NCBI GenBank assembly: GCA_021809525.1
Contig: JAKAYU010000007.1
Span: 1-40,005, forward strand
DNA: 40,005 nt
Origin: Pseudomonadota bacterium
Lineage (GTDB): Bacteria; Pseudomonadota; Gammaproteobacteria; Steroidobacterales; Steroidobacteraceae
Direction: 5' to 3'
In this document: piece after piece, positions 6,177 to 40,005 of the stretch
Position numbering within the stretch: position 1 is the first letter of the stretch
Layout: the number at the start of each line of letters is the position of its first letter
Translations under genes and position numbers: made by a program
The notes under the pieces: model-generated
What the model was told of the DNA's origin: nothing
What the model saw: the letters and a program-made list of their open reading frames with translations, nothing else
Databases searched by the model: none

Positions 6177-6196
6177 TCGGGTGCTCCTCCAGCGCT

Positions 6197-13183: not shown

Positions 13184-13200
13184 GCCGACCGCAGCCGCCT

Positions 13201-13224
13201 TGCCGGGCACATGTTCGCCCGGCA
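13201..13224 (+). terminator. Hairpin after the outer-membrane protein gene
   Basis: A perfect 8-bp inverted repeat (13201-13208 with 13217-13224) and 8-nt loop lie 17 nt after the stop. No U-run follows, so it may be a weak or Rho-assisted terminator, or a 3' stabilising hairpin. Confidence 0.4.
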
Positions 13225-13248
13225 GGGGCGCGCGCGCCGGTCCGAAGC

Positions 13249-13257
13249 TGCTAAAAT
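13249..13257 (+). promoter_or_regulatory. Candidate extended -10 promoter of the arn operon
   Basis: TGCTAAAAT is an extended -10 element (TGN followed by TAAAAT, five of six matches) within an AT-rich patch at 13249-13271 that contrasts with its surroundings. It lies about 50 nt before the first arn gene. No clear -35 is present, which suits an extended -10 or activator-dependent promoter. I see no obvious PmrA/BasR direct repeat. Confidence 0.5.
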
Positions 13258-13305
13258 TCTTCTTTTTATTATGCGTCGGGTGTGTCCCGGGCACGAAGGG
13301 TTTCC

Positions 13306-14364
13306 ATGGCACTGAAGATCATGATTCTCGGGGCGAACGGCTTCATCGGCAGCGCGCTCACCAGCGCGATTCTGCGCCAGCGCGACTGGGAGGTGTACGG
13401 CATTGACCTCTCGGACAACAAGCTCGGCGATCTGCCGAAGGATGATCGCTTCCACTTCGTCGAGGGTGACATCACCATCAACAAGGAGTGGGTCGAGTAT
13501 CACGTCAAGAAGTGCGATGTGGTGGTGCCGCTGGTGGCGATCGCCAACCCGGCGCAGTACGTGACGCATCCGCTGAAGGTCTTCGAGCTCGACTTCGAGG
13601 CGAATCTCTCCGTGGTGCGACACTGCGTCAAGTACGGCAAACGGCTGGTGTTTCCCTCGACCTCCGAGCTCTACGGCATGTCCCCGGACGCGGTGCTCGA
13701 TGAGGAGACGAGCCCGCTGGTGTACGGGCCGATCAACAAGCAGCGCTGGATCTACGCCGCCTCCAAGCAGCTGCTCGACCGGGTGATCTACGCCTACGGC
13801 GTGCGCGACAGCCTCGATTACACTCTGTTCCGCCCGTTCAACTTCATCGGGCCGAACCTCGATAACATCGAGGAGCCGAAAGAGGGCAGTTCGCGCGTGT
13901 TCACGCAGTTCCTCTCCAACGTGCTCTACCGCCGAGCGATCAAGCTCGTCGACGGCGGGCGGCAGAAGCGCTCCTTCACCTACATCGATGATGCGATCGA
14001 GGCGCTGCTGACGATCCTGGAGAACAAGGACGGCCGGGCGACGCGGCGCATCTTCAACATCGGCAACCCCGACAATTGCGTGTCGATCCGTGAGCTCGCC
14101 GACCGCACCATTCGCATCGCGCAGGAGTTTCCTGAGCTGCGCGATGCGGCCAAGAGCACTGAGATCGTCGAGGTGTCTGCCGGGGAGTACTACGGCAAGT
14201 ACTACCAGGACATCCAGGTGCGCGTGCCGGCGATCGAGGCGGCCAAGCGCGATCTCGGCTGGCGGCCGAGCACCGATCTCGACACGGCCATCCGCCGGAC
14301 GATCGACTTCTACGTGAGGCTCGGCAGCTTCAACGCGCTCAACAGCATGGCGACGGGGCTTTGA
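13306..14364 (+). CDS. arnA: UDP-glucuronate decarboxylase (C-terminal half of ArnA as a separate protein)
   Basis: A 352-residue extended short-chain dehydrogenase that oxidises and decarboxylates UDP-glucuronate to the UDP-4-keto-pentose, the first committed step to L-Ara4N. It corresponds to the dehydrogenase half of E. coli ArnA. The NAD site GANGFIG is at residues 9-15. The catalytic Ser120-Glu121 pair lies in FPSTSELYG, and Tyr150/Lys154 in IYAASK. These match the ArnA-specific acid residues and separate it from ordinary epimerases. The formyltransferase half is absent here and encoded five genes downstream. AAGGG five bases before the ATG supports this start; an in-frame GTG at 13282 is less likely. 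It is first in the operon, after a promoter-like AT-rich patch. Confidence 0.9.
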   Translation: MALKIMILGANGFIGSALTSAILRQRDWEVYGIDLSDNKLGDLPKDDRFHFVEGDITINKEWVEYHVKKCDVVVPLVAIANPAQYVTHPLKVFELDFEANLSVVRHCVKYGKRLVFPSTSELYGMSPDAVLDEETSPLVYGPINKQRWIYAASKQLLDRVIYAYGVRDSLDYTLFRPFNFIGPNLDNIEEPKEGSSRVFTQFLSNVLYRRAIKLVDGGRQKRSFTYIDDAIEALLTILENKDGRATRRIFNIGNPDNCVSIRELADRTIRIAQEFPELRDAAKSTEIVEVSAGEYYGKYYQDIQVRVPAIEAAKRDLGWRPSTDLDTAIRRTIDFYVRLGSFNALNSMATGL

Positions 14365-14399
14365 GCGGCGCCCGAGGGGCCTGACGGGGAGTGTGACCT

Positions 14400-16061
14400 A
14401 TGAGCGCAGCGCAGGCGCGCGCCGAGCGGCTGAGATGGTGGGCGTGGGTGCTGCTGGCGGCGATCTGGTTCGCAACGCTGCAGATCCGCCCCATGTTCGA
14501 CCCGGACGAGGGCCGCTACGCGGAGATCCCGCGGGAGATGCTGGTCACGGGCAACTGGGTGACCCCCCGGCTCGATGGGCTGAAGTACTTCGAGAAGCCG
14601 GCGCTGCAGTACTGGGCGACGGCCAGCGTGTACAGCGTATTCGGCGTCAGCAACTGGTCCTCGCGGCTCTGGACGGTGGGCCTGGGGTTCGGGTGTCTGG
14701 CGCTGATCTACGCGTGGCTCGCTCGTCTCTACGACCGGCGCGCGGCGATTGCGGCGGTCGCGCTGCTCGCGATGAGCCCGTACTTCGGCATCATCGGCCA
14801 TCTGGATCTGCTCGACGCCGGTTTGTGCTTCTGGCTCACCGCCATGGTGCTCGCGTTCACGCGCGCGCAGTGCGCCACGCCGGGCTCGGGCGCGGAGCGC
14901 AACTGGATGCTGGTGTCCTGGGCCATGGCGGCGCTGGCGCTGTTGACCAAGGGACTCGAGGTCTACGTGCTCGCCGGACTGGCGCTGATCAGCTATAGCG
15001 CGCTCGAGCGCGATGCGCGGCCCTGGCGCCGCCTGCACCTGCTCACCGGCATCCCGCTGATGGTGCTCATCGGGGCGCCGTGGTTCGTCGTCGTCTCGCT
15101 GCGCAACCCGGCGTTCGCGCACTACTTCTTCATCGACCAGCACTTCGAGCGCTTCCTGACCGACCGGGCGCGGCGGGTCGAGCCGTGGTGGTATTTCATC
15201 GCGCTGCTGGTGATCGGAGCGTTCGCCTGGCTCGTGCCGCTTGCGCGCGCAGCGCGTGCGGCGTGGCGCGATCCGGGACCGGTGCCGCACTTCAAGCCGC
15301 TGAAGTTCCTGCTGCTGTACTCGCTGCTCACGGTCATCTTCTTTTCCATCTCGGACTCGAAGCTGGCCACCTATATCCTGCCGATATTCCCGCCGATCGC
15401 GGCGCTCACCGGCGTGTACCTGACGCGCCGCCCCGGCGCGCTCGCGCGCACGGCGTGGGTGGCCGCGGGGCTTGCGACCTTCGTGGCCGTCGGACTACTC
15501 GTTTATTCGCATCATCGCAACGGCTTCATCCCGCCGCATGCGATCGGCTGGGGGGCCGCGGCCGTCGCTGCAGCGCTCGTGGCGGTGGTGGTGAGCGCTC
15601 GCGGCGAGCGCCGCGAGGTCCGCCCAGCCGAGGCGGGCGGCGGCAGTGTCGCGGTGCCGTTGGCCGTGACCGCGGCGTTCATCTTCGTCTGGCAGGCGCT
15701 GCTGTGCCAGTATGCGGTCATTCCCCCGTCGCGCTCGGCCTATCAGCTGGTCCAGCAGATCAAGCATGACGTGCATCCGGACACGGCCCTCTACAGCGTG
15801 CAGCAATACCGCCAGACCATCCCGCCGTATCTGGGTCGGCTGCTCACCCTCGTGGACTACAAGGGCGAACTCGGCGCCGGCGAGCGCTGGCAGCCGGGGC
15901 TGATGAGCGCGACGCCGGCGCAGTTCGTCCGGCAATGGAAGGCGAGCCGGGATGCGGTCGCATTCTTCCCGCCGTCGGTCTGGCGGCGGTATCGTCAGGA
16001 GGGCCTGCCCGGGCGCGTGATCGGGCGGGACAGTTTCACGGTCGCGGTGAGCCGGCAATGA
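14400..16061 (+). CDS. arnT: L-Ara4N transferase ArnT (GT39/GT83 family)
   Basis: A 553-residue inner-membrane glycosyltransferase with about 12 hydrophobic segments and a C-terminal periplasmic part. It moves L-Ara4N from undecaprenyl phosphate to lipid A phosphates on the periplasmic face, which lowers negative charge and binding of cationic peptides. The first periplasmic loop has the family motif Asp-Pro-Asp-Glu-Gly-Arg-Tyr-Ala-Glu-Ile-Pro-Arg-Glu-Met, with acidic residues needed for catalysis. Lys-Tyr-Phe-Glu-Lys-Pro-Ala-Leu and Asp-Ser-Lys-Leu-Ala-Thr-Tyr-Ile-Leu-Pro also match ArnT. Length is as in E. coli (550). The ATG at 14400 lies 35 nt after the decarboxylase gene. Its stop overlaps the next start (ATGA). 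Confidence 0.9.
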   Translation: MSAAQARAERLRWWAWVLLAAIWFATLQIRPMFDPDEGRYAEIPREMLVTGNWVTPRLDGLKYFEKPALQYWATASVYSVFGVSNWSSRLWTVGLGFGCLALIYAWLARLYDRRAAIAAVALLAMSPYFGIIGHLDLLDAGLCFWLTAMVLAFTRAQCATPGSGAERNWMLVSWAMAALALLTKGLEVYVLAGLALISYSALERDARPWRRLHLLTGIPLMVLIGAPWFVVVSLRNPAFAHYFFIDQHFERFLTDRARRVEPWWYFIALLVIGAFAWLVPLARAARAAWRDPGPVPHFKPLKFLLLYSLLTVIFFSISDSKLATYILPIFPPIAALTGVYLTRRPGALARTAWVAAGLATFVAVGLLVYSHHRNGFIPPHAIGWGAAAVAAALVAVVVSARGERREVRPAEAGGGSVAVPLAVTAAFIFVWQALLCQYAVIPPSRSAYQLVQQIKHDVHPDTALYSVQQYRQTIPPYLGRLLTLVDYKGELGAGERWQPGLMSATPAQFVRQWKASRDAVAFFPPSVWRRYRQEGLPGRVIGRDSFTVAVSRQ

Positions 16062-16429
16062 AGTGGTCCGTGTTCGCGTTTCTCTTCGGCGGCGTGCTGC
16101 TGAATGCGTTCGCGCAGCTCGCGCTGAAGGCGGCAACCGACGATACCGGGCCGCTGTTCGGCACCGGGGTGCCCGTCATCGCGCGGCTGCTCGAGCTGGC
16201 CGCCGTGCCGTGGATGTGGCTCGCCGTGGGCTGCTACGGCGTCTCGCTGATCGTGTGGGTGGTCGGGTTGTCCCGGGTGCCGGTGAGCCAGGCCTACCCG
16301 CTGCTCTCGCTCGGCTACGTCATCAACGCGGGCTTCGCCTGGTGGCTACTCGGGGAGGCGCTGAACCTCGAGCGCGTGGCCGGCATTTTCGTGATCATAT
16401 TTGGTGTGATACTGGTGGCTCGCTCATAA
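16058..16429 (+). CDS. Small EmrE-like carrier (ArnE/ArnF type)
   Basis: A 123-residue protein with four hydrophobic segments of the SMR/DMT superfamily. In E. coli two such proteins, ArnE and ArnF, are thought to form the flippase for undecaprenyl-phosphate-L-Ara4N. Here only one gene of this type is present, so a homodimer or a partner elsewhere must be assumed. The sequence has Asn-Ala-Phe-Ala-Gln-Leu-Ala-Leu-Lys-Ala in helix 1, typical of the ArnE/F and SugE-like branch, and Pro-Val-Ser-Gln-Ala-Tyr-Pro-Leu-Leu-Ser-Leu-Gly-Tyr in helix 3. I cannot say whether it is closer to ArnE or ArnF. The ATG overlaps the arnT stop as ATGA, so translation is coupled. arnB starts 3 nt after it. Confidence 0.82.
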   Translation: MKWSVFAFLFGGVLLNAFAQLALKAATDDTGPLFGTGVPVIARLLELAAVPWMWLAVGCYGVSLIVWVVGLSRVPVSQAYPLLSLGYVINAGFAWWLLGEALNLERVAGIFVIIFGVILVARS

Positions 16430-16432
16430 GTC

Positions 16433-17560
16433 ATGAACTCCTTCCTGCCCTTTACGCGTCCAACTATCGACGAGCAGACCATTGCCGAGGTCGCGCAGGT
16501 GCTGCGTTCCGGCTGGCTTGCGAGCGGCCCGAAGGTCAAGGCGTTCGAAGCGGCGCTGTCGCAGTACTGCGGCGGCCGTCCGGTACGCACCCAGACTTCG
16601 GCCACCGCGAGCCTCGAGCATGCGCTGCTCGCCTGCGGCATCGGTGCGGGCGATGAGGTGATCGTGCCGGCGATGAGCTTCGTCGCGAGCGCCAACGTGG
16701 TGGTACGCACCGGCGCGCGCCCGGTGTTCGTCGACGTGAATCTCGATACACGCAACATCGATCTCGACCAGGCCGAGGCGGCGGTGAGCGCGCGGACCCG
16801 CGCCATCATGCCCGTGCACCTGTGCGGCATGCCGGTGGACTGCGACCGCGTGTACGCGCTCGCCGAGCGCCATCAGCTGCGCGTGATCGAGGACGCCGCG
16901 CAGGCGATGGGCTCGAGCTACCGCGGCAGGCGCATCGGCAGCTTCGGCGATCTGGTCTGCTTCAGCTTCCATCCCAACAAGAACATCACCTCCATCGAGG
17001 GCGGTGCGGTGGTCGGCGGATCTCCCGAGGAGGTGCACGAGCTCGAGCTGCACCGCTTCCACGGACAGGAGAAGTCCGCCGCCGATGCATTCGAGACCTA
17101 CTTCGCGGGCGGCAAGGCGAATCTCACGGACGTGGCCGCCTGTGTCGGCCTCGGGCAGCTGCGCCGGCTGGAGGAGTTCAACGCCCGGCGCCGCGACCTC
17201 GCGGCGCGCTACTTCGAGCTATGGGGAGAGGATGCGCCGCTTGCGCTGCCGGCGCGCGGGGACGCCGGACACAACTGGCACATGTTCGCAGCGCGGCTGC
17301 CGCTCGAGCGGCTGCGCATCAGCCGGCTCGAATTCATCGAGGCGATGGCCGCGCGCGGCATCGGCATCGGTGTGCACTACCCGGCGATTCACCTCTTCAG
17401 CGCCTATCGGGCGCTCGGCTACCGCGAGGGACAGTTCCCCAACGCCGAGCGGATCGGCCGCGAGACGGTGACGCTGCCGTTGTTTCCGGCGATGAGCTTC
17501 GAGGATGTCGGGCGGGTGGTGCACGCCACCAACGAAGTGCTGCGTGAGGCGAAACGGTGA
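16433..17560 (+). CDS. arnB: UDP-4-amino-4-deoxy-L-arabinose aminotransferase ArnB
   Basis: A 375-residue PLP enzyme of the DegT/DnrJ/EryC1 sugar aminotransferase family. It transfers an amino group from glutamate to the UDP-4-keto-arabinose made by the decarboxylase. The Schiff-base Lys183 is in FSFHPNKNIT, the aspartate contacting the pyridine nitrogen is in Val-Ile-Glu-Asp-Ala-Ala-Gln, and Ser/Thr phosphate contacts lie in Ser-Ala-Thr-Ala-Ser-Leu near 56-61. The C-terminal Gly-Val-His-Tyr-Pro-Ala-Ile-His is characteristic of ArnB-like enzymes. Size is normal. It acts in the cytoplasm. The start is 3 nt after the carrier gene, and the stop overlaps the GTG of arnC (GTGA). Confidence 0.92.
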   Translation: MNSFLPFTRPTIDEQTIAEVAQVLRSGWLASGPKVKAFEAALSQYCGGRPVRTQTSATASLEHALLACGIGAGDEVIVPAMSFVASANVVVRTGARPVFVDVNLDTRNIDLDQAEAAVSARTRAIMPVHLCGMPVDCDRVYALAERHQLRVIEDAAQAMGSSYRGRRIGSFGDLVCFSFHPNKNITSIEGGAVVGGSPEEVHELELHRFHGQEKSAADAFETYFAGGKANLTDVAACVGLGQLRRLEEFNARRRDLAARYFELWGEDAPLALPARGDAGHNWHMFAARLPLERLRISRLEFIEAMAARGIGIGVHYPAIHLFSAYRALGYREGQFPNAERIGRETVTLPLFPAMSFEDVGRVVHATNEVLREAKR

Positions 17561-24846: not shown

Positions 24847-25779
24847 ATGAGCACGAGCACACCGAGCCCCTCCGGCACGCGCCTCTCCCCGCACCTGCGC
24901 CAGCTCGAGTCCGAGTCGATCGGCATCCTGCGCGAGGTGGTTGCCGAGTTCCACAATCCGGTGATGCTCTACTCGATCGGCAAGGACTCCGGCGTCATGC
25001 TGCACCTGGCGCTGAAGGCGTTCCACCCCGCGAAGCCGCCGTTTCCGCTGCTGCACATCGACACCGGCTGGAAATTCCGCGCCATGATCGAGCACCGCGA
25101 TCAGATCTGCGCGCGCTACGGCGTGAAGCTCCTCGTGCACACCAACCCCGATGGTCTGGCGCGCGGAATAAATCCGATCACCTGCGGCTCGCAGCTGCAC
25201 ACCCAGGTGATGAAGACCGAGGCGCTGAAGCAGGCGCTCGACAAATGGCAGTTCGACGCCGCCTTCGGCGGTGCACGGCGCGACGAGGAGAAAAGCCGCG
25301 CCAAGGAGCGCATCTTCTCGTTCCGCTCCGCCGGGCACGTGTGGGATCCGCGCAATCAGCGCCCCGAGCTGTGGAATCTCTACAACACCCGCATCAGCCA
25401 GGGCGAGACCATCCGGGTCTTTCCGCTCTCGAACTGGACCGAGCTCGACATCTGGCAGTACACGCGCGCGCAGAACATTCCGGTGGTGCCGCTTTACTTC
25501 GCAGCGGCCCGGCCGGTCATCGAGCGCGACGGGCAGCTCATCATGCGGGACGATGAGCGCATGGCGCTGAAGCCCGGGGAGCGCGAGCAGGTGCGCATGG
25601 TGCGCTTCCGCTCCCTCGGCTGCTATCCGCTGTCGGCCGCGATCGAGAGCCAGGCCGCGACGATCGATGAGGTCATCGCCGAGATGCTCGCCACGCGCAC
25701 GTCCGAGCGCTCCGGACGGCTGATCGATACCGACGAGGCGGCCTCGATGGAGAAGAAGAAACGTGACGGATACTTCTGA
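24847..25779 (+). CDS. cysD: Sulfate adenylyltransferase subunit 2 CysD
   Basis: A 310-residue catalytic subunit of ATP sulfurylase, which makes adenosine 5'-phosphosulfate (APS) from ATP and sulfate with GTP hydrolysis by CysN. The PP-loop Ser-Ile-Gly-Lys-Asp-Ser-Gly-Val is at 43-50. [14 protein letters not shown] and the Arg-Phe-Arg-Ser-Leu-Gly-Cys motif are characteristic. The C-terminus ends Arg-Asp-Gly-Tyr-Phe, as in the E. coli protein. Length is normal. The ATG at 24847 follows the cysQ stop by 4 nt. The 3' end overlaps the CysNC start by 17 nt, so the two subunits are coupled. It acts in the cytoplasm. Confidence 0.95.
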
Positions 25780-27646
25780 CAGCGCGGCCGCGGGCGCGGC
25801 CGAGCGCAAGGAGCTGCTGCGCTTTCTCACCTGCGGCTCGGTCGATGACGGCAAATCGACGCTGATCGGCCGGCTGCTCTATGACACGCAGCTCGTGCTG
25901 GACGATCAGCTCGCGGCGCTCGAGCGCGACAGCCGCAAGCACGGCACGACGGGCGAGGATCTCGATCTGGCGCTGCTCGTCGACGGACTGCAGGCCGAGC
26001 GCGAGCAGGGCATCACCATCGACGTCGCCTACCGGTTCTTCGCCACGCCGCGCCGCTCGTTTATCGTGGCCGACACCCCGGGCCACGAGCAGTACACGCG
26101 CAACATGGCCACCGGGGCCTCGAACAGCCAGGCGGCGGTGATCCTGATCGATGCGCGCAAGGGCGTGCTCACCCAGACGCGCCGGCACAGCTACATCTGC
26201 GCGCTGCTCGGCATCAAGCACGTGGTGCTCGCGGTCAACAAGATCGACCTGGTGGATTTCTCCGGCGAGCGCTTCCACCGCATCGTCGCCGATTACCTCG
26301 GATTCGCCGAGCCGCTGAAGTTGCGCTCCATCACCAGCATTCCACTCTCGGCGCGCTTCGGCGACAACGTGATCCGCCGCTCCGAGCGCACCGGCTGGTA
26401 CGAGGGGCCGACGCTGATCGAGCACCTCGAGGCGCTCGATGTCAGCGAGGAACTCGCCGGTAAGCCGCTGCGCTTCCCGGTGCAGTGGGTGAACCGGCCG
26501 GACCTCGACTTCCGCGGCTTCGCCGGCACGGTCGCCTCGGGCGTGGTGCGCCCGGGCGACAGGGTCGTGGTGGCCGAGTCCGGGCGCGAGAGCCGGGTGG
26601 AACGCATCGTCACGGCCGACGGGGATTTGTCCGAGGCCCGAGCCGGCGATGCGGTCACTCTGACGCTCACGGACGAAGTGGACGTGGCGAGAGGAGACGT
26701 GCTCGCGCATGCGGATGCCCGCCCGGAAGTGGTCGATCAGTTCGCCGCCGATGTGCTGTGGATGAGCGAGGAGCCGATGCTGCCGGGACGCTCCTATCTG
26801 ATGCGCATCGGCACGCGCTACGTGCCGGCGCGCATCACGAGCCTGAAGCACAAGACGGACGTCAATACCCTCGAGCACATTGCGGCCAAGACGCTCGGCC
26901 TGAACGAGATTGGCTCGTGCAACCTCTCCACCGCGACGCCCGTCGCCTTCGATCCGTATGCCGAGAACCGGGCGACGGGCGCATTCGTGCTCATCGACCG
27001 CTTCACCAACGCCACCGCTGGCGCCGGCATGATCAGTTTCGGGCTGCGCCGCGCCACCAACATCCACAGGCAGGCGCTGCTCGTCGATAAATCCGCGCGG
27101 GTGCGCTTGAACGGGCACCGGCCGGCGATTCTGTGGTTCACGGGCCTGTCCGGCTCCGGCAAGAGCACCATCGCCAACATCGTCGAGCGCGAGCTGCACG
27201 CGCTCGGCGCGCATACCTACATGCTCGATGGTGACAACGTCCGCCACGGGCTGAACCGCGATCTGGGCTTCACCGACGCCGACCGAGTCGAGAACATCCG
27301 CCGGGTCGGGGAGGTGGCCAAGCTCTTCGTCGACGCCGGGGCGATCGTGCTGTGCTCGTTCATCTCGCCGTTTCGCGCCGAGCGGCGCATGGTGCGCGAG
27401 CTGGTTGCGGCGCAGGAGTTCATCGAGGTCTTCGTCGACACGTCGCTCGAGGAGTGCAAGCGGCGCGATCCGAAGGGGCTGTACGCGCGCGCGCTCGAGG
27501 GCAAGATCAAGAACTTCACCGGCATCGACTCGCCGTACGAGCCGCCGGAGGAGCCGGAGATCGTGCTCGGCAGGAGCCCGCTCGCTCCCGAGGAGGAAGC
27601 GCGGCGGGTGCTCGAGGCGCTCAAGGCGCGGCAGATCATCGGCTGA
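25763..27646 (+). CDS. cysNC: Bifunctional sulfate adenylyltransferase subunit 1 / APS kinase CysNC
   Basis: A 627-residue fusion. Residues 1 to about 445 are the CysN GTPase, which powers APS formation by CysD: P-loop GSVDDGKST near 25-33, Asp-Thr-Pro-Gly-His near 104, Asn-Lys-Ile-Asp near 158, then two beta-barrel domains. Residues from about 450 are CysC APS kinase with its own P-loop Gly-Leu-Ser-Gly-Ser-Gly-Lys-Ser-Thr, and Asp-Gly-Asp-Asn-Val-Arg. It gives PAPS, the substrate of PAPS reductase or sulfotransferases. The fused form is common in proteobacteria and in nodPQ. The GTG start at 25763 lies inside the 3' end of cysD. No cysH, cysI or cysJ is in the window. A perfect hairpin follows the stop. 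Confidence 0.95.
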
Positions 27647-30619: not shown

Positions 30620-32989
30620 ATGTCTGAGACGAATTTCATCATCCGCAAGGTGGCCGTGCTCGGGGCAGGCGTGATGGGCGCGCAGATCGCCGCCCATCTG
30701 GTCAATGCCGGGGTGCCGACCGTTCTTTTCGATCTGCCGGACCCCGAGGGCGGCAGCGGCATCGTCACCAGAGCCATCGCGGCGCTGCGTAAGCAGCAGC
30801 CCGCGCCGCTCGCCGCGGGCGGCCTGGAGGCATTCATCGAGCCGGCCAACTATACGCAGGATCTTGGTCGGCTCGCCGAGTGCGATCTGGTGATCGAGGC
30901 CATCGCCGAGCGGCTCGACTGGAAGCGCGAGCTGTACCACAAGGTCGCCCCCGCGCTCGGCGCCGGGGCGATCTTCGCCACCAATACCTCGGGACTGTCG
31001 ATCGAGGCGCTCGCCGAGGCCTGCCCGGCGGCATTGCGGGCGCGCTTCTGCGGGGTGCATTTCTTCAATCCGCCGCGCTACATGCACCTTGCCGAGCTCA
31101 TTCCATGCCGCGCCTGCGAGGCGCAGCTGCTCGATCAGCTCGAGACCTTCCTCGTCACCACGCTCGGCAAGGGCGTGATCCGCGCCAAGGACACGCCGAA
31201 CTTCATCGCCAACCGCGTCGGGGTGTTCTCGATGCTGGCCACGCTGGCCAATGCGGCCAAGTACAACCTGCGCTTCGATGTGGTCGACGATCTGACCGGC
31301 CCGAAGCTTGGCCGGCCGAAGTCCGCCACGTTCCGCACCGCGGATGTGGTCGGCCTAGACACCTTCGCGCACGTCGTGCGCACCATGCGCGAGGGTCTGC
31401 CGAAGGATCCCTGGCACGGGTTGTATGCCGCGCCGCCGTGGCTCGAGAAGCTGATCGCCGCCGGCGCGCTCGGGGCGAAGAGCAAGAGCGGCATCTATCA
31501 GAAGAAGGGCCGCGATCTGCTCGTGCTCGATCCGGCGAGCGGCAGGCACGTGCCGGCCGGCGAGCAGGCCGATGCCTCGGTGCTTGAGATTCTGAAGATA
31601 GCGGACGTGGCCGAGCGGTTCTCAGCGCTGCGCGCGAGCGCGCATCCGCAGGCGAAGTTCCTCTGGGCCTCCTTGCGCGACACCTTCCATTACGTGGCCT
31701 ATCACCTCTCGGACATCGCCCATTCGGCGCGCGACATCGATCTCGCCATGCGCTGGGGCTTTGGCTGGCAACGCGGGCCGTTTGAGCTGTGGCAGGCCGC
31801 CGGCTGGTCGCGCGTGGCCGAGTGGATCGAGGCGGACATGCGCGCCGGTGAGACGCTCTCGCAGGCTGCGCTGCCGCAGTGGGTGCGCGAGGCCGGACGC
31901 ACCGGCGTGCACTGCCCGGACGGCTCGTACGATGCGGGCGGCAAGCGCCTGGTGCGCCGCTCGCAGCTGCCGGTGTACCGACGGCAGCTCGCGCCTGCTG
32001 CGCTCATCGGCGAGCGGCGCGACCTCGGCGAGACGGTCTACGAGAACCCGGCCGTGCGGGCCTTCACGAGCGGCGATGGTGTGCTGGTCGCCTCCTTCAA
32101 GACCAAGGCGCACTCGATCAGTCCGGAGGCGCTCGAGGGGCTGAACCAGGCCATCGATCTGGCCGAGCAGCGCTTCCGGGCGCTGGTCATCTGGCAGAGC
32201 GAGCCGCCGTTCTCGGTCGGGGCGAATCTCGAGGCGCTGCGTCCGGCGCTCGCCGCCGGTGACTGGGCCACCATCGGGTCGGTCATCGCCCGGTTTCAGA
32301 GCACCTCGATGCGTCTGCGCTACAGTCTCATTCCAACGGTCGCGGCCACCGAGGGCTATGTGTTCGGCGGCGGCTGCGAGTTCGTCATGCACTGCGACCG
32401 GGTCGTGGCGGCGCTCGAGTCGTACGTCGGCCTGGTGGAGGTCGGTGTCGGACTGCTGCCGGGCGGCGGTGGCTGCAAGGAGCTCGCGCGCCGCGCCGCA
32501 CGCGAGAGCCGCGGCGATCTGCTTGCGGCGCTGAAGGATTACTACATGGCGGTCGCCACTGCGAAGGTCGCCGGCAGCGGCATCGAGGCGCGCCAGATCG
32601 GTTATCTGCGCGAGAGCGACGTGGTGGTGTTCAACGCCGATGAACTGCTCTACGTCGCCAAACAGCAGGCGCTCGCCCTGGCCGAGAGCGGCTACCGCCC
32701 CCCGCTTGCCGGCGCGCGCTTCCCGGTCGCCGGCCGCACCGGCGCGGCTTCGATCAAAGCGCAGCTGGTGAATCTGCTCGAGGGGCATTTCATCAGTCCG
32801 TACGACTTTGAAATCGGCTCGCGCATCGCCGAGGTGATGACCGGCGGTGAGCTCGAGGCGGGCACCGAGGTCGATGAGTCGTGGATCCTCGCCCTCGAGC
32901 GGCGGCACTTCGTCGAGCTGCTGAAAAACCCCAAGACCCAGGAGCGCATCGTGCATACGCTCAAGACCGGCAAGCCGCTGCGCAATTGA
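30620..32989 (+). CDS. fadN: 3-hydroxyacyl-CoA dehydrogenase / enoyl-CoA hydratase (dehydrogenase first, FadN-like)
   Basis: A 789-residue beta-oxidation enzyme with domain order opposite to FadB. It starts with the NAD motif Gly-Ala-Gly-Val-Met-Gly-Ala-Gln (about 15-22). His in Val-His-Phe-Phe-Asn-Pro-Pro is the catalytic base, and Asn-Phe-Ile-Ala-Asn-Arg-Val-Gly begins the dehydrogenase C-domain. The crotonase domain begins near 485, with Gly-Gly-Gly-Cys-Glu and Val-Gly-Leu-Val-Glu, so both hydratase Glu are present. Length and order match Bacillus FadN and its proteobacterial relatives, where a thiolase gene follows, as it does here 21 nt downstream. AGGGGA supports the ATG at 30620. Long-chain acyl-CoA degradation is likely. 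An acyl-CoA dehydrogenase is not in the window. Confidence 0.9.
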   Translation: MSETNFIIRKVAVLGAGVMGAQIAAHLVNAGVPTVLFDLPDPEGGSGIVTRAIAALRKQQPAPLAAGGLEAFIEPANYTQDLGRLAECDLVIEAIAERLDWKRELYHKVAPALGAGAIFATNTSGLSIEALAEACPAALRARFCGVHFFNPPRYMHLAELIPCRACEAQLLDQLETFLVTTLGKGVIRAKDTPNFIANRVGVFSMLATLANAAKYNLRFDVVDDLTGPKLGRPKSATFRTADVVGLDTFAHVVRTMREGLPKDPWHGLYAAPPWLEKLIAAGALGAKSKSGIYQKKGRDLLVLDPASGRHVPAGEQADASVLEILKIADVAERFSALRASAHPQAKFLWASLRDTFHYVAYHLSDIAHSARDIDLAMRWGFGWQRGPFELWQAAGWSRVAEWIEADMRAGETLSQAALPQWVREAGRTGVHCPDGSYDAGGKRLVRRSQLPVYRRQLAPAALIGERRDLGETVYENPAVRAFTSGDGVLVASFKTKAHSISPEALEGLNQAIDLAEQRFRALVIWQSEPPFSVGANLEALRPALAAGDWATIGSVIARFQSTSMRLRYSLIPTVAATEGYVFGGGCEFVMHCDRVVAALESYVGLVEVGVGLLPGGGGCKELARRAARESRGDLLAALKDYYMAVATAKVAGSGIEARQIGYLRESDVVVFNADELLYVAKQQALALAESGYRPPLAGARFPVAGRTGAASIKAQLVNLLEGHFISPYDFEIGSRIAEVMTGGELEAGTEVDESWILALERRHFVELLKNPKTQERIVHTLKTGKPLRN

Positions 32990-33010
32990 GCGGCACGGGA
33001 GATAACCGTC

Positions 33011-34213
33011 ATGACGAAACAGATTCAAGACGCCTACATCGTGGCCGCGACCCGCACGCCGGTCGGCAAGGCGCCGCGCGGCATGCTGCGCCAGGTGCGC
33101 CCGGATGACCTGCTCGTTCACGCGCTGGTGAGCGCGCTCGCGCAGACGCCGGCGATCGAGCCGGCTCTGGTCGAGGACGTGGTGGTCGGCTGCGCCTTTC
33201 CCGAAGCCGAGCAGGGGTTGAACATGGCCCGCGTCGCGGCGCTGCTCGCCGGGCTGCCCGACACGGTGCCCGGCGTCACAGTCAACCGCTACTGCTCCTC
33301 GGGGCTGAATGCGGTGCAGATCGCGGCCGACCGCATCCGCCTCGGCGAGGCCGACGTGGTGCTCGCCGGCGGCGCGGAGTCGATGTCGATGGTGCCGATG
33401 ATGGGCAACAAGGTCGCGGTCAACCCGCGGGTCTTCGAGCGTGAGGAGAACTACGCGATCGCCTATGGCATGGGCATCACGGCTGAGAAGGTTGCGCTCC
33501 AATGGCGCGTGTCGCGGGAGGACCAGGACGCGTTTGCGCTCGAGTCGCACCGCCGCGCGCTCGCGGCGCGGGCCGCTGGCGGCTTCAGCGCGGAGATCTC
33601 CCCGCTCGAGGTCACCTACCGGACGGCAGATCTGGCCGCCGGCGAGGTGCGCACCACCGTTAAGCGGCTGAGCGAAGACGAAGGGCCGCGCGCGGACACC
33701 TCGCTCGAGGCGCTCGCGAAGCTCAAGCCCGTCTTCGACGCCAAGGGCAGTGTCACCGCCGGCAACAGCTCGCAGACCTCGGACGGCGCAGGCGCGGTCG
33801 TGCTCGTGTCCGAGGCGGTGCTCAGGCGCTACAATCTGACTCCGCTCGCGCGCTACGTGACCTTCGCGGTCAAGGGCGTTCCGCCGGCGATCATGGGCAT
33901 CGGCCCGAAGGAGGCCGTGCCGGCCGCGCTGTCGCGTGCGGGACTGAAGCAGGATCGGCTCAAGTGGATCGAGCTCAACGAGGCCTTCGCCGCGCAGTCC
34001 CTCGCGGTGATCCGCGATCTTGAGCTCGATCCGGCGCGTGTCAATCCGCACGGCGGGGCCATCGCGCTCGGCCATCCGCTCGGGGCGACCGGCGCGATCC
34101 GCACGGCCACGCTGGTGCACGGCATGCGCCACAGGGGCGAGAAGGGCTACGGCATGGTCACCATGTGCATCGGCACGGGCATGGGGGCGGCGGGGATCTT
34201 CGAGGTGTTCTGA
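33011..34213 (+). CDS. fadA: Acetyl-CoA C-acyltransferase (FadA-type thiolase)
   Basis: A 400-residue degradative thiolase that completes the beta-oxidation cycle by cleaving 3-ketoacyl-CoA with CoA. Nucleophile Cys95 is in Val-Asn-Arg-Tyr-Cys-Ser-Ser-Gly. His is in Gly-Gly-Ala-Ile-Ala-Leu-Gly-His-Pro-Leu-Gly, and the C-terminal Cys in Val-Thr-Met-Cys-Ile-Gly-Thr-Gly. Leu-Asn-Glu-Ala-Phe-Ala-Ala-Gln gives the Asn-Glu-Ala-Phe motif. It is not the PcaF branch, unlike the other thiolase in the window. It follows the fadN-like gene by 21 nt, which is the fadN-fadA order known from Bacillus. It converges with an ABC permease gene 16 nt away. Confidence 0.92.
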   Translation: MTKQIQDAYIVAATRTPVGKAPRGMLRQVRPDDLLVHALVSALAQTPAIEPALVEDVVVGCAFPEAEQGLNMARVAALLAGLPDTVPGVTVNRYCSSGLNAVQIAADRIRLGEADVVLAGGAESMSMVPMMGNKVAVNPRVFEREENYAIAYGMGITAEKVALQWRVSREDQDAFALESHRRALAARAAGGFSAEISPLEVTYRTADLAAGEVRTTVKRLSEDEGPRADTSLEALAKLKPVFDAKGSVTAGNSSQTSDGAGAVVLVSEAVLRRYNLTPLARYVTFAVKGVPPAIMGIGPKEAVPAALSRAGLKQDRLKWIELNEAFAAQSLAVIRDLELDPARVNPHGGAIALGHPLGATGAIRTATLVHGMRHRGEKGYGMVTMCIGTGMGAAGIFEVF

Positions 34214-34229
34214 AGGGCCGTGCCTGCAC

Positions 34230-35411
34230 CTACTCCGGCCGCAGCCCCGCGGCGATCGACAATCGCGCGGCGCGCACCGCCGGCAGCGCCCCGCCGGCGA
34301 TCCCGAGCGCGAGCGCGTACAGGATGCCGAGGGCGATCAGGTGTGGCGTGACGGCGAAGCGGAAGGCGACGACGCTGAACTGGTTGTAGGTCGTCGCGCG
34401 AAAGCCGTTGAACAGCGCGTACGCGAGCGCCGCGCCGCCGAGCCCGCCGAGGGCGGCGAGGACTGCGGACTCGAGCAGTACCGAGCACAGCACCGCCGAG
34501 CGGGCGAACCCGAGCGCGCGCAGCGTGGCGAGCTCGCGGGTGCGCACCGTCACGGCCGTGTACATCGTGTTGATGGCGCCGAACACCGCTCCGCCGCCCA
34601 TGAGCAGTGCGATGGCGCCGCCGACAATGTCGATGAACAATGCAAGGTTGCGCGCCTGAGCGGCGAAGTAGGCGCTCTCGCGCTGCACGCTGACGTCGAG
34701 CCGAGGGTTGGCGGTGAGAAAGCGCTTGAAGCGCTCGAAAGCTGCGCTCGAGCGCAGCCGCACGTAGAGGGAGCTGAACGAGCTGCCTCGGTGGTACGCG
34801 CCCTGCAGGACCGGCAGGCTCGTCCAGAGCTCCGAGTCGTGTAGCCCGCCGCCATCGTCGAATACTCCGACCACGCGCCAGCGGTACGGCCCGGCATGCA
34901 GCACGCTGCCCACGCGCAGGCCGCGGAAGTCGCGCTGCGCGTCGGCCCCGACGATGATCTCATCGAGCCCCGGGGTGAACATCCGCCCGCGCACGATCCG
35001 CAGGCGCGGATCGATCTGCAGCGCCTGCGCCGTCACGCCGCGGAAGGAGACCTCCGCCATGGTGCCGGTGAGGCGCTTGGTGAGGCTCACCTGGGTGAGC
35101 AGCTGCGGGGAGATGAGCCGCACCCCGCCAGAGCGCGCGATCCCGGGTGCCTGGGCGATCACCGGGATCAGCTGCGCGCCGAGCACGCTGTTGACCTCGG
35201 TGCCGGCCCCGCCGTGCAGCACGATCGCGATGTCCGGGGAGCCGCTTGCCGCCAGCGTGGCGCGGAACCCGCTGCGGATCGAGAGCACTGCCAGCATCAC
35301 GAGCACCACTCCGGCGAAACCGAATACCGCGGCGAGGGAGGACTCGAGCCGCCGCCCGAGAGTGCCGAGGCTGTGCGCGCTCGTGAGCAGGGTTTGCCGC
35401 AGCCAACGCAC
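34230..35411 (-). CDS. FtsX/MacB-type ABC transporter permease
   Basis: A 393-residue permease of the FtsX/MacB family. It has an N-terminal helix (about 25-45), a periplasmic MacB_PCD-like domain of about 200 residues, and a C-terminal set of three helices. The last is preceded by Thr-Val-Arg-Thr-Arg-Glu-Leu-Ala-Thr-Leu-Arg-Ala-Leu-Gly, the coupling-helix motif shared by MacB and LolC/E. Such proteins drive mechanotransmission rather than classic import, for macrolides, lipoproteins or peptides. The GTG at 35411 is chosen because it falls one base after the stop of the upstream permease gene; a longer open frame upstream overlaps that gene. No ABC ATPase is seen within the window. The cargo is unknown. 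Confidence 0.85.
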   Translation of the reverse strand: MRWLRQTLLTSAHSLGTLGRRLESSLAAVFGFAGVVLVMLAVLSIRSGFRATLAASGSPDIAIVLHGGAGTEVNSVLGAQLIPVIAQAPGIARSGGVRLISPQLLTQVSLTKRLTGTMAEVSFRGVTAQALQIDPRLRIVRGRMFTPGLDEIIVGADAQRDFRGLRVGSVLHAGPYRWRVVGVFDDGGGLHDSELWTSLPVLQGAYHRGSSFSSLYVRLRSSAAFERFKRFLTANPRLDVSVQRESAYFAAQARNLALFIDIVGGAIALLMGGGAVFGAINTMYTAVTVRTRELATLRALGFARSAVLCSVLLESAVLAALGGLGGAALAYALFNGFRATTYNQFSVVAFRFAVTPHLIALGILYALALGIAGGALPAVRAARLSIAAGLRPE

Positions 35412-35412
35412 C

Positions 35413-36577
35413 TCAGCCCTCGCGCAGTCCGGCCGCTGCCGGCGCAGTGAGCAGCGTGACGATGGGCAGCATTGCCGCCAGCGCGCCGAGCAGCAGCATG
35501 AACGCTCCGCCCAAGGGCAGGGCCGCAGACGGTACGCGCAATCCGGGCAGGAACTCCAGCAGCGCAGCGGCGAAGTCGCTGAAGCTTGCCACGAGCGCAT
35601 ACGCCCCCGCGAGGCCAAGCGCACCGCCGAGTGCGGTTACGGTCAGGGATTCCAACAGGATGAGCACGCAGAGCCGCCGCGTGCCGAAGCCGAGCGAGCG
35701 CAGCAGCGCGAATTCCCGCAGCCGCTCGCGTACCGACTGCATCATGGTGTTGCCCGTGACGAGCAGCATCGTGAAGAATACTGCGCTCACCACTGCCGAT
35801 ACGATGGCGGCTATGTCGCCGAACTGACTGGTGAAGTCGCGCACGAAGGCCGCCTCGGGCGCGGTGCGGGTCTGCTCCGGGGAGTTCGCGAACAGCGCAT
35901 CGATCGAGCGGCCGATGCGGTCCGCTTCCCCGGGATGGGCGATGCGCAGCACGAAGAAGCTCGCCGTGCCGTTGGCGAACGTGCGCACATCATCCAGGTA
36001 TCGGTAGTGCAATAGCAGCAGGTTATTCTGCCTGCCGCCGGGGCTGCTCACGATCCCCGCGACGATCACCTGCCAGGTGTTCGTCCCGTCGCGGTTGCGC
36101 CAGATGCTCGAGCGCAAGGGAATCTGCTCGCCGATCCGCCACCCGTAGCGTCTGGCGAGACGCCGTGCCGATCAGCACTCCGCGGCGGTCGGCAAGCCAG
36201 GCACGCCGCGCGCCGGGCGGCAGCTGCAATCGCGGGTAGACCTGCAGATACGGCCGCGCCTGCACGGCGAGCGCGTAAATCGCGTTGCTGGATTCGCGGA
36301 AGTAGCCGCCGAACCAAGCCTGCGCATCGACGGCGCGCACGCCCGGCAGTGCGCCGATCTGGCGCGCATCGGCGAGCGGCAACTGCACGGTGAGCGACAC
36401 TGCGTTGAAAGTCAGCAGCCGCGCGACGCGCTCGAAGCGCGGGCCGGCATTGAAGGCTTGGCGCAATGCGAGCAGGACACCGAACAGCGCGAACGCGAAA
36501 ATGACCGAGAGGAGCGTGAAGATGAAGCGCGCCCTGCGCCGAGTAAGGTTTGCCCAGATCAGCGACCAATGATTCAT
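35413..36577 (-). pseudogene. FtsX/MacB-type ABC permease with one apparent frameshift
   Basis: Two overlapping frames make one permease. The first runs from an ATG at 36577 (a GTG at 36583 is an alternative) with an N-terminal helix and periplasmic domain to Arg-Gly-Val-Leu-Ile-Gly-Thr-Ala. Then the reading must move by one base at about 36160. The second frame continues as Leu-Ala-Arg-Arg-Tyr-Gly-Trp-Arg-Ile-Gly-Glu-Gln-Ile-Pro-Leu and goes on to the helices and the Arg-Glu-Phe-Ala-Leu-Leu-Arg-Ser-Leu-Gly motif. One extra T (or two lost bases) explains it. Repaired length is about 387 residues, matching the adjacent copy of 393. Either a recent disabling mutation or a sequence error. The downstream permease starts one base after it. 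Confidence 0.8.
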
Positions 36578-36792
36578 TCGCACTCGGCCGGCCGGGCAGG
36601 TGGCACGCGGATGATCCGGTCACGGGCACACATCGGTTCCTCGGTTCGAAGACGGCGAGGCGGCGACGGTGCCGATTGTAGCGCCGCGGGAGCCGCAAGG
36701 TGAGGTGTGCCGGTGGTGCGGCGAAATCGACTTGTGCGCCCGCGCAACGCCCTGCGACACTGCGCGCAGTCAGTCCGGCCGTGGAGCATCGC

Positions 36793-37966
36793 GTGGACCG
36801 TCCCGCCCCGTCCGATCGCTTCGCCTCGCTCTGGAAGCTCGACCCGAAGGTCTTGTACCTCAACCACGGCTCCTTCGGCGCCTGCCCGGCGGCGGTGCTG
36901 CGCGCGCAGGCGCGCCTGCGCGCCGAGATGGAGCGCGAGCCGGTGGATTTCCTCGACGGAGCGCTCGCTGGGCGGCTCGATGCAGCGCGCGCGACGCTCG
37001 CGCGCCTCATCGGTGCGGATGCCGCCGATGTGGTGTTCGTCCCGAACGCCACGACCGCGGTGAACGCGGTGTTGCGCTCGCTCACGCTCGAGCCGGGTGA
37101 TGAGCTGCTGCTGACCAGTCAGACCTACGGCGCGTGCCGCAAGAGCGCGCAGTTCGTGGCGGCGCGGGCCGGCGCGCAGGTGGTGACGGCCCGCGTGCCG
37201 TTTCCGCTGCGAACCGAGGGCGAGGTGCTCGCGGCAGTGCTTGCGGCCGTCTCGCCGCGGACACGCCTCGCGCTTGTGGATCACGTCACCAGTCCGACGG
37301 CGCTCGTCCTGCCGGTCGAGCGCCTGGTGAGCGAACTCAGTGCCCGCCGCGTCGATACGCTCATCGACGGCGCGCATGCCCCCGGCATGGTGCCGCTCGA
37401 TCTGCGCCGCATCGCAGCGGCCTACTATACGGGCAATGCCCACAAGTGGCTTTGCGCGCCGAAGGGCGCGGCGTTTCTGCACGTGCGCGCTGACCGCCAC
37501 GCACGTGTCCATCCGACGGTCATCAGCCATGGCTACGGGGGCGGCCTGCGCGCTGAGTTCGACTGGACCGGCACCTGTGACCCCACGCCGTGGCTGTGTA
37601 TCCCGGCCGCCCTGGAGCACCTCGGCGCGGCGCTTCCCGGCGGCTGGCCGCAGCTGATGGCGCGCAATCGCGCGCTCGCGCTCGCGGCGCGCGCGGTGCT
37701 GCTCGATGCGCTCGGCGTCGCGCCGCCGTGTCCCGAGAGCATGATCGGCTCGATGGCCTCGATCCTGCTGCCCGCCCCACGGGCGGGCGCCCCGGCCGAA
37801 GGACTCGATTGCAGGCAGCTGCACGGCTGGTTGCGCGCGCGGCATCGAGACGTGGCTGTTTCCCAAGCCGGCGCTGCTGCTGCGCATCTCGGCGCAGCTG
37901 TACAACGACCTCGGCCAGTTTCGGCGTCTCGCCGCGGCGCTGCGCGAGTGCTGCGGCGATGGGTGA
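36793..37966 (+). pseudogene. Class V PLP aminotransferase (isopenicillin N epimerase-like) with one apparent frameshift
   Basis: The frame gives an aminotransferase class V protein like isopenicillin-N epimerase or cysteine desulfurase relatives. It starts Leu-Tyr-Leu-Asn-His-Gly-Ser-Phe-Gly, with a PLP Lys in Gly-Asn-Ala-His-Lys-Trp-Leu. The C-terminus ends in a different frame: Gly-Ile-Glu-Thr-Trp-Leu-Phe-Pro, then Leu-Leu-Leu-Arg-Ile-Ser-Ala-Gln-Leu-Tyr-Asn, a classic family ending. The change falls in a GC run at 37833-37841, consistent with loss or gain of a base or a GC unit. The shifted frame stops at 37964-37966, overlapping the start of the next gene. Repaired length is about 390. 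The GTG at 36793 is preferred, with GGAG six bases upstream. Without repair the last 40 or so residues are wrong. Substrate is unknown. Confidence 0.8.
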
Positions 37967-39315
37967 GGCGGCCCGCATCGAGCCGCGGCTCTCGACCTTC
38001 GACACTGCCATGGTGGTCTTCAGCCTGGTGGTGGGCATCGGGATCTTCCGCACGCCGGCCATCGTGGCGCGGGCTGCGGGCAGCGCGATGCTGTTCTTCA
38101 CCGCCTGGATCCTCGCCGGGGCCGTCAATCTGGTCGGTGCGTTCGTGTTCGCCGAGATCGGCGCGCGCCATCCGGGTGCGGGTGGCTACTACCGCGTGGT
38201 CGCGGATTGCTATCACCCCACGCTCGCCTTCATGCTCAATTGGTCGCAGACCATCATGCAGGGCGCGGGCGCGGGCGCGGGCGCGGCGGGGGTGGCGTTC
38301 ATCGGCGCCGATTACCTCGGCCCGCTGCTGCTGCCGGCCCGCTACGTGAATGCGCACGCGACGCTCGCGCTCGCCTGCGCGACCATGCTGGTGCTGCTGG
38401 CGTTCAATTACCGTGGCGTGAGCCTGGGGGCGCGCGCAGAACGTGCTCTCGCTGCTCAAGATCGCGCTCATGGCCGCCCTGGTGATGGCCGCGTTCGCCC
38501 TGGTTCGGCGGGCGCCGCCCGCCGCCGGTGCGCTCGGCGGGGCGCATGGGCCGTGGCCGCTGCGCCTTGCCACGGCGCTGGTGCCGTGCTTTTACGCTTA
38601 CGGCGGCTATCACCTGACGATGAATCTCGGGGCGGATTTGAAGGACGCGCGCCGGCGCTTTCCGCTCGCGATTGGCGCCGGTGTGCTGACCGTGGTGGCG
38701 TTGTATCTGCTGCTGAATCTTGCCTACCAGCACGCGCTCGGGGCCGGCGGCGCGGCGGACTCGCCCCTGGTCGCTGCGGCGCTCACCGGCGCGCTGTTCG
38801 AAGCGGCGGGCAAGGCGGTGGTTTCAGTCGTGGTGTTCTTCTCGGCCGCCGGCTTCGTCAACGCGACCATCGTGCACATGCCGCGCACCTTTTATGCGCT
38901 GGCCGAGGACGGGGCGCTGCCGCCGACCCTTGGCAAGGTCAATGCCCGCACCCAGGCGCAGGAGGCGGGCCTGCTGTTCTTCGGTGCGACGATGCTGGTG
39001 CCGGCGCTTGTGCTCGGCTCGTTCGCCAAGCTGCTCGATTACGTGATTCTGGTCGATACGGTGAGGCTTGCCGTGGTCGCCTCGAGTCTGTTCGTGCTGC
39101 GCCGCGGCGCGCAAGGCGAGGGCGGCCTTGCGATGCGCAGCTATCCGCTGCTGCCGGCGCTGTACATTTTGTGTCTGCTCACCGTGGCGGTGCAGGTGGC
39201 GGTGCTGCAGCCGGCACTTGCGCTCGGCGGCGGCGCGCTCCTCCTCACCGGATGGCCGTTGTTTCGTTTCGGCCGGCGCCTGTCCGGCACGAGCGCTCGG
39301 GTGAGCGGCTCGTGA
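37959..39315 (+). pseudogene. APC-family amino-acid permease with one apparent frameshift
   Basis: Two frames form a 12-helix APC transporter. The first runs from the ATG at 37959 (Glu-Pro-Arg-Leu-Ser-Thr-Phe-Asp, then Val-Gly-Ile-Gly-Ile-Phe-Arg-Thr-Pro) to Phe-Asn-Tyr-Arg-Gly-Val-Ser-Leu-Gly-Ala-Arg. The second takes over as Ala-Gln-Asn-Val-Leu-Ser-Leu-Leu-Lys-Ile-Ala-Leu and runs to the stop at 39313. The break lies in a GC run at 38431-38441. Repaired length is about 451 residues, usual for the family. The Gly-Ile-Gly-Ile-Phe unwound-helix motif of amino-acid binding is intact. The start overlaps the end of the aminotransferase, so the pair looks like an operon for import and conversion of one amino acid. 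Recent pseudogene or sequence error. Confidence 0.8.
38261..38284 (+). repeat. Four tandem copies of GGGCGC within the permease gene
   Basis: A perfect (GGGCGC)x4 repeat. It encodes alternating Gly-Ala in a transmembrane segment (Met-Gln-Gly-Ala-Gly-Ala-Gly-Ala). The spacing of GGG triplets also fits a G-quadruplex motif on the plus strand. Length change by whole units would keep the reading frame. Confidence 0.8.
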
Positions 39316-39325
39316 GCGGCGCCGC

Positions 39326-39793
39326 TCAGCCGAGCGGCAACTGCGTGGTGAACTTCTTGGTGCGCAGCACGAAGCTGGTATTGACCGAGCGGACCGAGGC
39401 GAGCGCCAGCAGGTGAGTGGAGAGGAAGTGCTCGTACGCCTCCATGCTCGCCGCCACGATGCGCAATAGGTAATCGTTCGTGCCGCTCATGGAATGGCAC
39501 TCGAGCACCTCCCTGCGCTCGCGCACGAGCCGATCGAAGGCGGCCACGGTGTCGGCGTGGTGATTCTCCAGCGACACCAGCGCGTACGCCTGCACGGGCA
39601 GACCGATCGCGGGCGCCGAGAGCAGCGTCGCGTAGCCGGCGATCACCCCTTCACTCTCCAGCCGCTTCAGCCGTCGCCAGCACGGGGCGGGTGAGAGGCC
39701 CACGCGCTTGGCCAGCTCCTGGTTGGTGATGCGGGCTTCGAGCTGCAGCGTCTCGAGAATCCGCCGGTCGAGTCGATCGAGAGGGCGTGCCAC
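39326..39793 (-). CDS. Second Lrp/AsnC family regulator
   Basis: A 155-residue Lrp/AsnC regulator. The helix-turn-helix is near residues 5-50 (Ala-Arg-Ile-Thr-Asn-Gln-Glu-Leu-Ala-Lys-Arg-Val-Gly-Leu, then Ser-Pro-Ala-Pro-Cys-Trp-Arg-Arg-Leu). The RAM domain has Ser-Gly-Thr-Asn-Asp-Tyr-Leu-Leu-Arg. It belongs to the specific-regulator type that often controls a divergent catabolic gene; that gene starts at 39927. The GTG at 39793 is preferred because GGAG lies six bases upstream. A TTG at 39805 also has a GGAG before it and would add four residues. It converges with the permease gene 10 nt away. Effector unknown, and control of the neighbours is inference. Confidence 0.86.
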   Translation of the reverse strand: MARPLDRLDRRILETLQLEARITNQELAKRVGLSPAPCWRRLKRLESEGVIAGYATLLSAPAIGLPVQAYALVSLENHHADTVAAFDRLVRERREVLECHSMSGTNDYLLRIVAASMEAYEHFLSTHLLALASVRSVNTSFVLRTKKFTTQLPLG

Positions 39794-39862
39794 GGCAGGC
39801 TCCAAATGGGCTCCAGATAGAAAGAATATTGCCAGAAATGCCGGTAAATAAGCAATAAAAGC

Positions 39863-39893
39863 AAGCCTATTTCCGGTGTGGGAGCATAGGCTT
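39863..39893. promoter_or_regulatory. 8-bp inverted repeat in the divergent promoter region
   Basis: AAGCCTAT (39863-39870) is repeated inverted at 39886-39893 with a 15-nt spacer, in the 133-nt gap between the Lrp gene and the next gene. The gap is AT-rich on its left side (ATAAAAGC, AGAATATT). It may be a regulator site or a hairpin in the leader of the rightward gene. Confidence 0.35.
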
Positions 39894-39926
39894 CGCCAAT
39901 TACGCTTTCAGATCCGGAGCGATCCC

Positions 39927-40005
39927 ATGGCGGTCTCAGCCTCTCCCACGGCGCTCGCTGGGCGCGATCCGGCGCCACTTGCCGAGCCCGACTGGCAGCG
40001 GATAA
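39927..40005 (+). CDS. Start of a rightward gene (partial, runs off the right edge)
   Basis: The ATG at 39927 has GGAG seven bases upstream and opens a frame to the edge of the window (26 codons). The N-terminus is Ala-Val-Ser-Ala-Ser-Pro-Thr, then Asp-Pro-Ala-Pro-Leu-Ala-Glu-Pro-Asp-Trp-Gln-Arg-Ile, with no signal peptide. It is divergent from an Lrp/AsnC regulator that may control it. Too short to assign a family. Confidence 0.55.
   Translation, partial: MAVSASPTALAGRDPAPLAEPDWQRI

Follow-up and report, generated by a model that had tools for sequence, protein, structure and literature searches.

The window, by which we mean the whole stretch of 40,005 nucleotides analysed here, is the entire contig C238 of a 3.57-Mb assembly in 325 contigs. 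Its right end carries, on the minus strand, two FtsX-type permease genes (34230-36577), followed by an aminotransferase gene and an amino-acid transporter gene on the plus strand and a regulatory gene that is again on the minus strand. The first permease gene, permB (34230..35411), encodes an FtsX/MacB-like ABC permease (Pfam MacB_PCD, 1.4e-14; FtsX, 5.2e-12) and is intact. The second, permA (35413..36577), encodes an FtsX-like permease whose frame is broken near 36161; its C-terminal piece matches Pfam FtsX (1.2e-12), and the N-terminal piece gave no match to a Pfam family. permA is transcribed divergently from the other pair, which consists of a class-V aminotransferase-fold gene (36793..37966; Pfam Aminotran_5, 4.6e-22), read in frame 1 up to about 37842 and then in frame 2, and a gene for an amino-acid permease of the APC superfamily (37959..39315), read in frame 3 up to about 38430 and then in frame 1. 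The corresponding APC protein of genome G029 matches Pfam AA_permease_2 at 2.6e-52. The APC start, as read off the sequence, overlaps the aminotransferase stop by 8 nt. An intact Lrp/AsnC-family regulator gene (39326..39805, minus strand; Pfam AsnC_trans_reg, 5.8e-22) adjoins the module.

A scan of genome contigs found a near relative of the locus, L064, in genome G060 (JAJYUL010000004.1, metagenome-assembled genome DX4.bin29). It is colinear with the window, with 94.7% identity over 30792-40001, and the extended match covers window positions 7202-40001 at 95.6% identity, with 1,391 substitutions. The left 7.2 kb of the window is 89.9% identical to L064 and carries many indels, none of them inside the coding segments of the hidden Markov model (HMM) described below. 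In this left part, 2908-4557 and 4560-6206 are neighbouring minus-strand paralogues with about 60% protein identity, apparently from an old tandem duplication; a similar pair occurs in G029 and G036. L064 is the single relative about 95% identical to the window among the six that align at both GC-run sites discussed below. The bins of the relatives may originate from a study of acid-mine-drainage sediments (PMC9061769) that used Illumina MiSeq reads and SPAdes, and whose bin names have the same form; the label 'DX4' is absent from its main text.

Two analyses agree on which genes are broken. A frameshift-aware coding HMM, trained on long open reading frames of the window's genus, with frame changes allowed and homologues left aside, called ten frame changes in the 40-kb window. 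Gene overlaps or junctions account for seven of them, which leaves three, at 36146, 37839 and 38426. In the alignment with L064, the only frame-breaking coding indels over 32.8 kb are +1 at 36161, −2 at 37832 and −2 at 38429; shifts of +1 and −2 have the same phase, which is thus shared by all three genes. The original prediction of three single-frameshift genes in a row was therefore right in its coordinates, gene identities and common phase, as it was in describing the genes elsewhere in the window as intact, with no other unexplained frame change called by the HMM. permB, for its part, shows no unexplained frameshift in the HMM and no indel in the L064 alignment, and the HMM called no second break in permA, the aminotransferase gene or the APC gene. 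In permA, −1 at 36209 and +1 at 36213 compensate each other and were summed to zero before counting. The remaining coding indels relative to L064 over 7202-40001 are both in frame, +12 at 25782 and +12 at 38261, and six more indels fall outside genes or at gene edges. Both in-frame insertions are GC-rich repeats, the one at 25782 being almost a duplicate of the next 12 bases. The one at 38261, overlooked in the prediction's list of breaks, lies in the same APC gene.

The comparison with close strains proposed at the outset gave a uniform answer: all aligned relatives have an in-frame length at the sites, namely three of three for permA (L064, L065 and L016) and six of six (L064-L069) for each of the other two genes. 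It follows that the breaks belong to the window's lineage alone, or else to its assembly. The three sites are 1.6-3.8 kb away from the contig end.

The three events differ in kind. In permA (36146..36166, minus strand), the window has one base more than L016, L064 and L065; this gain lies in no GC run and is flanked by several substitutions relative to L064. The aminotransferase break (37832..37841, plus strand) is a −2 shift at the left edge of a GC run, with all six relatives two bases longer. There, GCGCGCGCGG is preceded by TTCC in L064, L065 and L069 and by TT in the window. The simplest account is that CC was lost in one event, because loss of a GC unit requires an additional substitution. 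At the −2 break of the APC gene (38429..38438, plus strand), all six relatives are again two bases longer, and the run measures 10 nt in L064, L065 and L069 and 8 nt in the window, which reads clearly and unambiguously as the loss of one GC unit. The proposal that two sites had lost one GC unit from a GC run thus holds clearly only for the APC gene. The in-frame insertion in the same gene (38261..38285, plus strand) adds two GGGCGC units, encoding Gly-Ala, that are absent in L064-L067 and L069; L068 is also shorter than the window at this point.

How unusual such a cluster is depends on the background. Elsewhere in the assembly, four contig stretches provided 62,481 bp of coding DNA aligned with G060, with one coding frameshift, at a G run (L061:12564); the rest of the window adds none beyond the three in 30,780 bp of aligned coding DNA. 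These counts took BLAST matches of at least 800 bases and at least 90% identity, and thus left out the left 7.2 kb of the window. Three coding frameshifts in 2.27 kb, against one in 62.5 kb elsewhere, bear out the prediction's view of the cluster as striking. In a simulation, three of four random events in 93.3 kb fell within 2.27 kb with p 0.007, a value that is optimistic, the window having been chosen for its cluster. As a side observation, the matches of G060 around L061:12564 are scattered across several contigs.

The coding HMM gave six frame-change candidates in a 240-kb sample of the assembly, which were followed where G060 DNA had been fetched. At L061:12567 the assembly does differ from G060, and L044:2393 lies in aligned DNA with no difference from it; L044:17613 fell outside the kept alignment, and the remaining candidates are two in L051 and one in L055. 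In 182 kb from G029, G036, G026 and G024, there was one candidate (L041:16623). At L044:17559-19999 and 12729-17558 the G060 match falls to 90% or is interrupted, which shows a difference in content or order between the two assemblies in that contig.

GC runs as such do not predict breakage. DNA aligned with G060 has 102 runs of 8-11 nt, and four overlap an indel: two belong to the cluster, one has a 1-base indel (L058:16733) and one lies inside a 42-base deletion (L061:18942), the latter two indels both being called noncoding or edge. Outside the cluster, no run of this length in the aligned sample shows a coding loss of a GC unit, so it is the place, not the motif, that predicts the breaks. 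We rejected a blanket sequencing failure in GC runs, as runs of 10-11 nt persist in both the window and the sample. A mutator lineage was rejected too: GC runs elsewhere are kept, and loss of mutS or mutL, as in mismatch-repair deficiency, is not seen, given an 870-aa open frame that contains a MutS_V domain and a 653-aa one that contains a MutL_C domain.

Across the wider set of relatives, the scan kept 80 loci, and in 23 of these the APC gene adjoins the aminotransferase gene, so the two form a conserved pair. The APC gene is broken in three of these 23 loci: L065 has a deletion of about 51 codons, L068 has large deletions and L079 has a premature stop at residue 50. These lesions would be independent of those in the window. 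The L065 deletion (L065:8161-8175) sits at a 15-base overlap of two matches, close to a contig end, and could be repeat-mediated or an assembly collapse. In L066, L072 and L082 the gene runs into contig ends, and in L070 a stop occurs only near the natural end. All six near relatives aligned have an intact aminotransferase gene.

The permease pair is also unevenly distributed. Among seven genomes with both flanks, it is present in L064 and L065, not at this place in L030, L031, L032 and L034, and fragmentary in L029, where the fragments point to loss; absence here refers to this locus only. In L016 (genome G014), the permease pair stands beside the Lrp gene. L029:6110-7087 (genome G029) holds a different gene in the place of the permease pair, with fragments of the second permease beside it; its product has a tail that we take to be PEP-CTERM-like.

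We then considered amino-acid change on the two branches, as polarised by outgroups; differences that the outgroups could not polarise are dropped from these counts. On the window branch, 25 nonsynonymous changes stand beside 19 synonymous ones in the APC gene; in 22 control genes the corresponding counts are 114 and 343 (Fisher p 2.6e-5). The part after the break accounts for most of this excess, with 20 nonsynonymous and 10 synonymous changes, against 5 and 9 before it. On the L064 branch the same gene has 10 nonsynonymous and 14 synonymous changes, and the difference between the two branches is not significant (p 0.31). The window branch shows no excess over the controls in the aminotransferase gene (14 and 24, p 0.12) or permA (7 and 19, p 0.82). 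On the L064 branch, where all three genes are intact, their pooled counts are 31 and 39, raised over the controls of that branch (p 0.024). The three genes may thus be less constrained in general, which would account for part of the APC signal.

Pairwise dN/dS against L064 is 0.37 for the APC gene, 0.21 for the aminotransferase gene, 0.18 for permA and 0.12 for the pooled controls; between pairs of intact APC copies it is 0.18-0.21. One control gene (24868-25851), whose coordinates run past its stop, is included in the pooled dN/dS (23 genes) and excluded from the branch counts (22 genes). Altogether, the APC gene may have lacked function over some of the window branch, and the other two breaks are either recent or errors. 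Separately, the aminotransferase gene is unusually alike in L064 and G029, with a dS of 0.154 against 0.33-0.47 in four neighbours, and the identity of the window to G029 also peaks at this gene (36700-37900, in the comparison with L069/L029); the pattern suggests recombination of the gene between lineages.

The intact aminotransferase has 398 aa in G029 over the same span. Its nearest solved structures are PDB 5uts and 5v12, of the hercynylcysteine sulfoxide lyase Egt2, and the G029 protein matches 5uts best, with an E value of 6e-34. By sequence it matches class-V enzymes like EgtE/Egt2 and SufS/CsdA, and for all 25 NCBIfam families shown its score stays far under the respective cut-off. The R-x-S-A-Q-x-Y segment of Egt2 aligns with it, in a second stretch whose score of just −2.8 bits is too weak alone. 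The arginine of this segment would be the one that binds the substrate carboxylate in class-V enzymes. The break falls near residue 355 of 398 (G029 numbering) and takes away about the last 43-45 residues, including the RISAQ segment at 372 with that arginine. The APC protein is cut at about residue 155-157 of about 450-453, after roughly one third of the transporter.

We consider the locus to be probably a case of recent ordinary decay, in which a dispensable aminotransferase/APC pair and the neighbouring permease gene have been lost. A lineage no longer needing this stretch of genes would have come under relaxed selection, the APC gene perhaps first; replication slippage or other small indels would then have turned permA, the aminotransferase gene and the APC gene, with one small indel each, private to the window's lineage, into young pseudogenes whose products are presumably dead. 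This reading is supported by the concentration of coding frameshifts next to a colinear L064 that lacks all three, by the permease pair being absent at this place or fragmentary in five of seven genomes, and by the MutS and MutL domains lying in long open frames. The support comes mainly from the APC gene, with its −2 shift, its +12 insertion, its excess of amino-acid change and the breaks in 3 of 23 loci. It is weakened by the lack of a significant difference in APC change between the window branch and the L064 branch, where the pooled genes are raised too, by the intact aminotransferase genes of all six near relatives, by the two other genes, which show no excess, by the lack of a second called break in any of the three, and by the closeness of the sites to the contig end.

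The main rival is an error of consensus or assembly: sparse coverage or a mixture of strains close to the contig end could have produced some or all of the indels, the genes being intact in the cell. We rate this as possible, though clearly the less probable of the two. The window is one of 325 contigs and the sites lie less than 4 kb from its end; the records of the six nearest relatives are tagged with coverages of 3-7x in four cases and of 22x and 37x in the other two, which would matter if the window's assembly is alike. The extra mismatches around the permA indel and the unremarkable amino-acid change in permA and the aminotransferase gene also speak for it. Against it, the DNA covered elsewhere looks clean: other contigs have a single coding frameshift in 62.5 kb, and the window's aligned coding DNA has none outside the cluster; long GC runs are kept elsewhere, and the APC gene bears further signs of decay.

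Phase variation, in which slippage in the GC runs would toggle the aminotransferase and the transporter within the population, seems to us very improbable. We hold the same slim expectation for its fuller form, in which reversible slippage silences a whole operon for amino-acid uptake and processing in part of the population and the permA break is a separate event. What speaks for it is that two of the sites are at GC dinucleotide runs, with breaks of the same phase, and that the window and L064 differ in length at both. However, the tracts are just 8-10 nt long, similar runs elsewhere show no coding loss of a unit, open frames contain the MutS and MutL domains, and none of the six relatives is out of frame at either GC-run site. 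At the aminotransferase site, 78 of 80 loci are spanned by one continuous match, L142 and L143 stopping short of it; at the APC site this holds for 22 of 23, the exception being L082, which stops before the site. Moreover, the aminotransferase break is most simply a loss of CC and the permA break lies in no run. Programmed translational frameshifting that restores full-length products, for which one same-phase shift per gene would suffice, has practically no claim on the data, since the aligned relatives encode the genes in a single frame at the break sites, which leaves no frame change conserved among orthologues and excludes a conserved recoding signal there for those relatives. Among the three options first put forward, decay is thus the best supported and assembly error its main competitor, and switching by slippage finds no support.

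Ordinary decay of this kind has small significance outside this genome, where it offers a clean case of a gene pair going in one lineage, within a genus that keeps both the aminotransferase/APC pair and the FtsX permease pair patchily. It also illustrates that a relative of 95% identity tells real frame breaks from background, and that claims of a lost GC unit require a relative.

Hypermutability at contingency loci requires a sufficient tract length. Here, a tract of 8-10 nt occurs at two sites and none at the third, and as for on and off lengths among close strains, six of six aligned relatives are in frame at both GC-run sites, one of them, and only one, about 95% identical. The simple-sequence-repeat contingency loci of Campylobacter or Neisseria share with our locus the indels at a coding dinucleotide run; they differ from it in that our tracts are short, no aligned relative is out of frame and one site has no repeat. 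The locus is not a new kind of system. Bacterial pseudogenes ordinarily form by small indels. In all three genes the frame is broken relative to intact orthologues, and the likeness to such pseudogenes extends to one private indel per gene, intact relatives and a single dispensable unit. Nothing essential differs; the genes here are young, with no second frame break called.
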